Shown in pieces: positions 38,052 to 53,552 of a stretch of DNA of 64,000 bases (position 1 is its first letter; the number at the start of each line of letters is the position of its first letter). This stretch comes from Thermococcus camini (lineage in GTDB: Archaea; Methanobacteriota_B; Thermococci; Thermococcales; Thermococcaceae), in NCBI RefSeq assembly GCF_904067545.1, contig NZ_LR881183.1, positions 562,277-626,276 of the forward strand, written 5' to 3'. Under the pieces are notes generated by a model. It was given only the letters and a program-made list of their open reading frames with translations. It had not been told where the DNA came from and searched no databases. A program made the translations under genes and the position numbers.

Positions 38052-38798
38052 TTACTTCAACCCTAACCGGGACAGGTACTCAACCATTTTCTCAACATCG
38101 TTGACTATGACTCCATCGAAGAGTCCGCCGAGGCGGACGAGGTTATCGTTGGTGTAGTATGTCTCGTCTTTGAGGGACCACAGAACGACCTTAAGACCCG
38201 TTCCCCTGGCCATCTGGAGGGCACCCACTGTTTTTTCCACACCGATGAATTCAAGCGCCTCCACCGGGGGATTTATTGACCACAAGGATAGCTCGCCGAT
38301 GAGGGCGGGGAGCCGTGCGAGCGTCTCTTCCCTATCCACGAGGAGCCCCATCCTTGTCTCCCTGTCGTATTTCCTGTACTCCCTGAGGGCATCGATTAGG
38401 AACGAGGACACCATAACCCTCGACGGGTTGTTTGCCCCGATTATTGCGGCCGTCTTTTTAACCGCTTCTACATCCTTTATCTCCACGTTGATTAAAATAT
38501 CCTCCGGGAGGGCTTCAAAGGTCTCTTCGAGTGTTGGAATCATCTCTCCGTTCCCGAAGTCCAGGGACTTCAGCTCGTTCAGCGTCATGTCCTTGACCTT
38601 ACCGCTCCCGTTGCTCGTCCTGTCAACCGTATCGTCGTGGATCACCACGACCTCCCCGTCCTTTGTCAGCCACACGTCCAGCTCAATTCCATTGGCACCT
38701 GCTTCAACCGCCTTTTTGAAAGCAAGAAGCGTGTTCTCTGGGTACCTGGCGGAGTAACCCCTGTGGCCGAGCACTATAACCTTATCCCTTTCCCACAT
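38052..38798 (-). CDS. Glycerophosphodiester phosphodiesterase
   Basis: 248 residues with [18 protein letters not shown] near 10-27, [10 protein letters not shown] near 39-48 and [15 protein letters not shown] near 52-66: the catalytic His pair and Glu/Asp metal ligands are intact. It releases glycerol 3-phosphate from deacylated phospholipids. Cytoplasmic (no signal). It starts within the end of a broken paralogue, which is upstream on the same strand. Confidence 0.94.
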
Positions 38799-39568
38799 TG
38801 GAATCGCCCCATGAAAATACCCCCTCCCCGTAAAAACCTTTCCTCAACCTGGCAGGGTCGTCGGAGATGACCGCGTCCGCGAGGGAGAGCAGCCTTGGAA
38901 TCCAGTGGAGTTCGTCCATACCGTGGTTCCAGAGGTAGATTTTAAGTCCACGCTTTCTGAAGGATTGGAGAAGGCTCCTGAACGCCCCGTATCCAACGTA
39001 CGAAACGGCATCTATTGGCACGTGGAGGGAGTAGATGCCCTTCAACCGCGGAACCCACATGAGGGAGGAGTAGCCCACTATGGAAAAACCCACCCTGCAG
39101 TTCGGGCATGCCTTCAGAACGGCCTCCACTATCTCCGGTCTCTCCGAGGAAAAGACGGTTCTCTCGAGGGCCTCCAGCTCCGCCTCCCTTAGCAGGGGTT
39201 CAACGGCCCTGGCTTCTTTAACGTCGGCGTTGAATACCGCACCGTTAAGCCGTGTGAAAACATCCCCCACCCGTGGTATTATCCTCCCCATTGGGTGCAG
39301 CCTTCTCAGCTCGACGAAGGTTAGATTTTTGAGGGAGTAGAAAGCCCCGTTGGAATAAAAGCCCGCGTCGTGGTGGGTTACATTTTTCTTCTGAAAGCTC
39401 GCCCTTCAGGGCGGGGGAGGAGGTCAGGAGCTTTCCGTCGCGGGTCAGCCTCACATCGAACTCCACTCCATCCGCGTATTTAAGCACCCTCTCGAAGGAT
39501 GGGAGTGTGTTCTCGAGCCTCCCCCTGACCCCTCTGTGTCCAAGGATGAGGGGTCTCTCACTGTCCAT
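38782..39568 (-). pseudogene. Second GDPD-like gene, broken by a 44-bp insertion
   Basis: The 5' part (39568 down) encodes RPLILGHRGVRGRLENTL and EFDVRLTRDGKLL, GDPD motifs. It then meets an insert at 39382-39425 and continues out of frame. Past the insert the correct frame resumes with VTHHDAGFYSNG and the C-terminal half (38782-39381), which reads well to the end. Removing the insert would restore one gene of about 247 codons. ATG 39568 has AGAGGTGA upstream, so the 5' fragment could still be translated. No activity expected because the catalytic HHD is lost from the first frame. Confidence 0.85.
39382..39425 (-). mobile_element. 44-bp hairpin insertion, IS200/IS605-like end remnant
   Basis: The inserted segment contains GCCCTGAAGGGC and GAGCTTTCAGAAG. 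Its 3' part, reaching into the flank, is GCTTTCAGAAGAAAAATGTA (39398-39379), repeated exactly at 53529-53548. Palindromic hairpins next to such sequences recall ends of IS200/IS605 elements in Thermococcales; that link is from memory, not a search. Confidence 0.6.
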
Positions 39569-39648
39569 AGTTGTCACCTCTCCAACCGCTCAAAAATGGG
39601 CTCACAAGTCTTAAAAGTTTCATCCATGTATTTTCCCCGTTAATTAAA

Positions 39649-53476: not shown

Positions 53477-53503
53477 TTCTTTCTCTCTTTTATCCTGGAT
53501 CTG

Positions 53504-53552
53504 TCCTATTCCCTGCCGGTAGGATAAGGCTTTCAGAAGAAAAATGTAGTAA
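53504..53552 (+). mobile_element. Second copy of the hairpin plus 20-mer element
   Basis: TCCTA...TAGGA forms an imperfect hairpin, then GCTTTCAGAAGAAAAATGTA at 53529-53548, identical over 20 bases to the flank of the GDPD insert (39379-39398 on the minus strand). It lies in the 3' gap between convergent genes. Likely a decayed element end; no transposase is present. Confidence 0.55.

Follow-up and report, generated by a model that had tools for sequence, protein, structure and literature searches.

In Haloquadratum walsbyi, 52-bp terminal-only PATEs have been described that derive from HqIRS46 and from the TnpB element ISHwa23, and repeat-mediated deletion between near-terminal palindromes is given as their origin; six 52-bp copies are strain-specific, and according to the authors they may be mobilised (PMC3119063). 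For IS608, the account in PMC5934647 gives CL as TTAC with GL AAAG and CR as TCAA with GR GAAT, with the pairs A+16:T-3 and A+17:T-4. REP sequences and REPINs are dispersed hairpins related to IS200/IS605 ends, and mobilisation in trans by a Y1 enzyme is the model proposed for them (PMC3116915), while the free-standing IS605 stem loops on Borrelia plasmids are single end hairpins without a transposase gene (PMC2775950).

The 46-bp insert reported here interrupts a GDPD-like gene in a 64,000-nucleotide stretch of the Thermococcus camini genome (the window), and is the Thermococcus counterpart of the Haloquadratum terminal-only PATEs. As the latter are portrayed in PMC3119063, both are of IS605-type origin, about 50 bp long, carry a 5' targeting oligonucleotide and have long forms alongside, and the tnpB-only ISHwa23 parallels the TGAC class of Thermococcus elements; the two belong to different archaeal lineages and are likened here without a sequence comparison. 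The Thermococcus copies (hereafter stumps) are set apart by a tested link between guide and target and by their spread over the genus. Like IS608 as described in PMC5934647, the stump is inserted 3' of TTAC, has the left guide AAAG and shares the subterminal hairpin structure, and the Thermococcus right site TCAG with guide GAAC parallels TCAA/GAAT; unlike IS608, it is gene-free and has one hairpin rather than two. REPINs, in the account of PMC3116915, are inverted doublets whose singlets are thought defunct, whereas each Thermococcus copy keeps both transposon termini. The Borrelia stem loops match one end, and the description in PMC2775950 does not extend to a fused left-plus-right unit of this kind. 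We found no report of such an element for Thermococcus in the open-access literature searched. Terminal-only IS605 relics are hereby extended from haloarchaea to a hyperthermophile genus, in which they are shown to break genes.

The interrupted GDPD gene and its empty site

The minus strand carries a GDPD-like gene (39577-38782) that is split by a hairpin-bearing insertion, which leads to a frameshift. The relevant features of the window are as follows.

39428-39577, minus strand: N-terminal half of the broken GDPD gene; its translation has 50 codons (...GHRG...EFDVRLTRDGKL) and is intact in relatives
38785-39381, minus strand: C-terminal half of the same gene, with 199 codons (VTHHDAGF...) and the stop at 38782-38784; orthologues in relatives
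38052-38798, minus strand: intact GDPD paralogue in tandem with the broken gene, whose 3' end it overlaps; PF03009, E 4.9e-40
39382-39427, plus strand: terminal-only IS200/IS605-type element of 46 bp, composed of left tail, guide, one hairpin and right tail; absent from seven aligned relatives
39378-39381, plus strand: TTAC target tetranucleotide, retained at the left flank and present in the empty site of seven relatives

Each half still reads as protein, the open reading frames and translations agreeing on this point with a sequence-only reading of the same DNA. When the Pfam search was run, the N-terminal half matched PF03009 over 39425-39577 (E 3.4e-9) and the C-terminal half alone had no match. 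With the C-terminal half as query, a protein scan of GTDB r220 returned no relative, the own and very near genomes possibly having been left out of that scan; within the genus, matches to this half were found in 59 of 61 genomes (E 0.001, both paralogues counted). The first ORF (39577-39245) carries the N-terminal GDPD signature and is out of frame past DGKL, and the second, VTHHDAGF... to 38782, lies in a different frame, such that the combination that identifies a GDPD (PF03009 with HRG...HHD in one frame) is missing from the broken gene, in which HRG and HHD are now in separate frames. The HHD motif is part of the GDPD catalytic site, and because it falls after the insertion the gene is very likely dead as a GDPD, a loss of enzyme function predicted from sequence. 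The intact tandem paralogue may compensate. Since its start overlaps the end of the broken gene (38782-38798), translation coupling between the two genes could be disturbed.

In an alignment of the locus with L026-L032, one relative from each of seven genomes, the insert is the sole large gap at the site and spans 46 bp (39382-39427). All seven relatives have the empty site, in which GGGTTAC is followed directly by GAGC, with 0 bases duplicated or lost. Without the insert the broken gene measures 750 bp (796 - 46), as does the corresponding stretch in L027, L028, L029 and L031, and besides the insertion there is no net length change relative to these four. The sequence-only reading had correctly recognised an insertion with a frameshift; it placed the insert at 39382-39425, and its 44 bp fall two bases short. 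Its proposal that removal of 44 bp restores one frame fails on arithmetic, as 44 leaves a remainder of 2 and the frames of the halves differ by 1; 46 leaves a remainder of 1 on division by 3, and the frame therefore shifts. Nor do the relatives join DGKLL to VTHHDAGF as it supposed: they read DGKLVTHHD, with a single L.

The intact gene that this reading expected in relatives is indeed present, with both HRG and HHD in one open frame at 24 of 29 relatives' loci; the remaining five comprise L030, which has a 1-nt deletion, and four unmatched by the motif expression used. The same interruption in relatives, which would have spoken against the reading, was not seen, as 0 of the 29 GDPD loci carry the hairpin. 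Private codon changes in the broken copy number seven synonymous and three nonsynonymous, and its dN/dS against L026-L029 is 0.21-0.29, compared with 0.18-0.29 among those intact genes. There is thus no sign of relaxed selection in the codon changes or in dN/dS against L026-L029, from which it follows that the loss is recent and that the gene was under selection until recently. The central claim of the sequence-only reading, that a small hairpin insertion recently broke a GDPD paralogue, is borne out by the intact orthologues, the exact empty site, the otherwise unchanged length against four relatives and this lack of relaxed selection. Separately, the 1-nt deletion in L030, the GDPD orthologue of a second species (G003), lies about 16 nt from the insertion point; that genome is a draft, and the deletion is possibly an error.

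A genus-wide family of transposon ends

The insert, whose identity the sequence-only reading had left blank, is one copy of a genus-wide, IS200/IS605-derived terminal-only element. It lies in the orientation opposite to the GDPD gene strand and contains these further features.

39394-39397, plus strand: left guide (GL) AAAG, on the 5' side of the hairpin base and the same as the IS608 GL; covaries with the target in sampled copies
39398-39415, plus strand: hairpin CTCGCCC-TTCA-GGGCGGG, DNA fold -7.1 kcal/mol, z -1.97
39424-39427, plus strand: TCAG right end, candidate right cleavage site, with its boundary set by empty sites

As in a terminal-only PATE, the left tail is that of long left ends, the right tail is that of long right ends, and one palindrome lies between them; GGTCAG or a close variant ends nearly all sampled copies. 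The targeting oligonucleotide is on the 5' side and is not duplicated, both at the seven GDPD empty sites and at five further loci. The IS200/IS605 insertion rule is also obeyed: elements sit 3' of a set tetranucleotide, and a guide at the foot of the hairpin pairs with that tetranucleotide (TTAC/AAAG, TGAC/CAAG). The family's gene content (TnpA and/or TnpB) is lacking from the 46-bp unit, which is gene-free, whereas its long relatives do encode these proteins. The insert is thus a terminal-only form of an IS200/IS605 element, and probably a relic.

Several other identities were considered and rejected. A classical MITE would have target duplications and terminal inverted repeats, and neither is present at these sites, where the element ends differ (a T-rich left tail and a GGAGGAGGTCAG right tail). 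A REPIN, an inverted REP doublet with a RAYT enzyme, is at odds with the single hairpin and with the lack of a Y1_Tnp match in the own genome. A known Rfam RNA is ruled out, the four loci scanned having yielded only a tRNA, and so is a chance hairpin or local slippage, given that the insert belongs to a dispersed family.

The core pattern, which captures stumps and full-length right ends alike, occurs in 44 of the 61 genus genomes, and a reversed-pattern control gave 0 matches in all 61. From fetched loci among the matches listed, 142 rows were sampled, 91 stump-like and 51 right-end-like, a few of them decayed or mis-sorted (e.g. L068). Among the stump-like rows, 46 have TTAC and 23 have TGAC; the remaining 22, in which the tetranucleotide was a different one or could not be recognised, did not enter the Fisher test. 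The guide base is A in 41, C in 4 and G in 1 of the TTAC rows, and C in 22 and T in 1 of the TGAC rows, an association with p 5.5e-14 (Fisher, A/C cells) that is nominal, as some rows share an insertion by descent and are not fully independent. The observed change, A/C against T/G, falls on the IS608 pair A+16:T-3, and this covariation in natural copies provides independent support for the IS608 recognition rule in archaea. Most long right ends have GAAC before the hairpin and TCAG at the end, which fits the same guide/target rule as in IS608; the stumps have the left-type guide only (AAAG or CAAG), without the right-type GAAC.

Y1 matches were found in 15 of the 61 genus genomes. The tnpA-bearing sister loci with these ends mostly begin with TTAC followed by TTTTTTCTTYTGAAAGCCTCG... 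on the left and have GGAACCCTCG... on the right; in several of the tnpA-bearing elements the left end reads TTAC, then ...GAAAG, and the right end GAAC-hairpin-AGGAGGTCAG. Variants among the tnpA-bearing loci are L095, which has TGAC with GAAAG, and L100, with another left flank, and L085, L088 and L093 have unrelated hairpins. An exact stump is also present in L281 (QMTU01000019.1), on a contig labelled Thermoplasmata archaeon, which probably belongs to Thermococcales and was mis-binned.

Searched by BLAST against the own genome, 121 bases spanning the insert gave 18 matches; the part common to the best matches, which end at about the insert edges, is the insert itself. A probable further copy lies in the window.

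53501-53545, minus strand: probable decayed second copy between two genes, preceded by CTAC, with a 20-bp exact match and ending GGACAG

Its left tail is identical to that of the GDPD copy (ATTTTTCTTCTGAAAGCC...), and its hairpin is eroded. Two full tnpB elements are present in the own genome, with left ends of TGAC followed by TTTTTTCTTTTGC(or CAC)AAGCCTCGCCCTTTAGGGCGGGGTAC... and right ends of ...CGCCCTTCAGG(G/A)CGGG(G/A)AGGAGGTCAG; the miniature copies correspond to the left end through the hairpin, and then the right tail. A third TnpB gene (L020) is not linked to these element ends. Because searches of the own genome found neither a Y1 transposase (tnpA, Y1_Tnp) nor a TTAC-class left end, the source of the GDPD insert is gone from this genome or was never resident in it. 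The tnpB element at 892.8 kb (L012) and one in G059 (L280) have catgcatatttcggagttgac in common as their left flank, which makes this insertion a shared or an old one.

Probable collapse in place and the alternatives

A search with the flanks of 21 stump loci in six genomes recovered base-exact empty sites in relatives, of 45-46 bp and without duplication, for five of the 21 (L153, L149, L009, L126, L131). At L010, L118, L015 and L115 the relatives have no room for the insert, with small differences or without a base-by-base alignment, and for L141 and L011 this search matched no flank in other genomes; the 21 also include L144 and L152. L140 is the only clean long-versus-stump pair among the 21 loci: G027 has a 46-bp stump where G003, with the same flanks, has a 1460-bp element with an open 413-codon TnpB frame, and G010 has a diverged stump. 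The hairpins at this site are GCCCTTTAGGGT (long, left), GCCGTTCACGGC (long, right) and GCCCCTCACGGC (stump), the last being mixed, with the left arm of the long left hairpin and the right arm of the long right hairpin. The pair is consistent with collapse of the element between its left and right hairpins. A chimeric hairpin does not by itself decide for collapse, as long right ends show mixed closing pairs too (5 of 60, against 7 of 90 stumps).

Further sites show longer or rearranged states. At L138, G003 has a longer element without tnpB, with the same right flank and a different left flank; at L134, which has two copies, a long element is present in the sister and the intervening segment is inverted; and at L147 the sister carries a different remnant at the same TTAC. 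In the L134 comparison (G027 against L264 of G003), the inverted segment is 1.9 kb long and lies between inverted stumps in G027, and the G003 long element sits at one breakpoint.

We therefore consider it probable that the GDPD insert is a terminal-only relic left by in-place collapse of an IS200/IS605 element. A TTAC/AAAG-class element, the class that carries tnpA in sister genomes, would have inserted 3' of TTAC within the GDPD gene, in antisense orientation and without target duplication. Its directly repeated left-end and right-end hairpins would then have recombined or slipped on each other, removing the core and leaving the left tail, one hairpin and the right tail, and the remaining 46 bp would have shifted the frame and parted the N-terminal HRG section from the HHD section. 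The exact insertion, its empty site, the membership of a dispersed family and the match of target and guide were observed directly at this locus, as was one orthologous long-versus-stump pair elsewhere; from these we infer the passage of the GDPD copy through a long form. Against this route stand the lack of a long element at the GDPD site in the genomes examined, the lack of tnpA and of a TTAC-class left end in the own genome, and the single clean long-versus-stump pair among the 21 loci.

The alternative is that the 46-bp unit is itself mobile, with TnpA acting in trans to cut at TTAC and TCAG, and that a stump hit the GDPD gene directly. This we regard as unlikely, though it draws on several observations. 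Species-specific stumps occupy exact empty sites even between sisters that are ~98-99% identical, and mobility has been raised by the Haloquadratum authors for their 52-bp copies (PMC3119063). G014 has six pattern matches, and the five fetched are near-identical, all of the TTAC class and with the same tail and TTTA loop; searches of this genome found neither tnpA nor a TnpB above the cut-off, and left ends of both classes are absent, a stumps-only state that could reflect complete loss of long forms or stump movement. Against stump mobility, the presence at one site of the long form in one sister and the stump in the other indicates collapse in place; the right cut would lack its usual guide, as stumps are without GAAC; and TnpA, as characterised in PMC5934647, is a dimer that acts on two end hairpins. 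It is accordingly doubtful that IS200/IS605 ends fused at a single hairpin, 46 nt in all, form a live unit which TnpA moves in trans and which reached the GDPD gene in this way. If true, the stump would rank among the smallest mobile units of DNA, and synapsis would have to be modelled anew for substrates with one hairpin. With many copies, and with empty, long and stump states in close relatives, the mobility of one-hairpin IS605 stumps becomes testable.

An assembly or sequencing artefact is highly improbable: a frameshift is a type of lesion that errors also produce, but the insert belongs to the family, has the proper target and guide as well as both ends, and sits at an exact empty site, in a genome assembled as a single contig of 2.02 Mb with 99.84% completeness. 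It is scarcely credible that the hairpin is a functional regulatory or recoding element kept in the gene, as might be supposed from a stable hairpin in a coding region with the downstream frame still open, since it is absent at all 29 relatives' loci checked, the Rfam scan of four loci gave no match besides a tRNA, and the insert lies opposite to the gene strand and obeys transposon insertion rules.

For annotation, inserts of 45-47 bp that follow TTAC or TGAC can account for small frameshifts in genomes of Thermococcus. Collapse in place aside, some stumps are accompanied by losses of host DNA: at L142, L143 and L145 (all G003) stumps replace about 470, 1087 and 183 bp, respectively, that relatives keep. 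When L145 and L143 are set against L261, L259, L260 and L258, the right junction of the 183-bp loss falls immediately after GTTAC in G027 and that of the 1087-bp loss immediately after TCTAC, and these stumps look as if a second target-like site had been used.

An intermediate class of ~375-405 bp, without tnpB, combines a left end with a long structured right end; it is represented by L018 (3033-3408, at about 1996432-1996807 of the own genome) and L275, and by similarity L121, L183 and L186, and G057 has several left and right ends spaced in the same way. This class could supply guide RNAs in trans. Finally, one exact TGAC site is occupied by a stump in each of two species, L149 in G003 and L267 in G010; the two stumps differ in their tails, and G027, G021 and G032 have no insert there.
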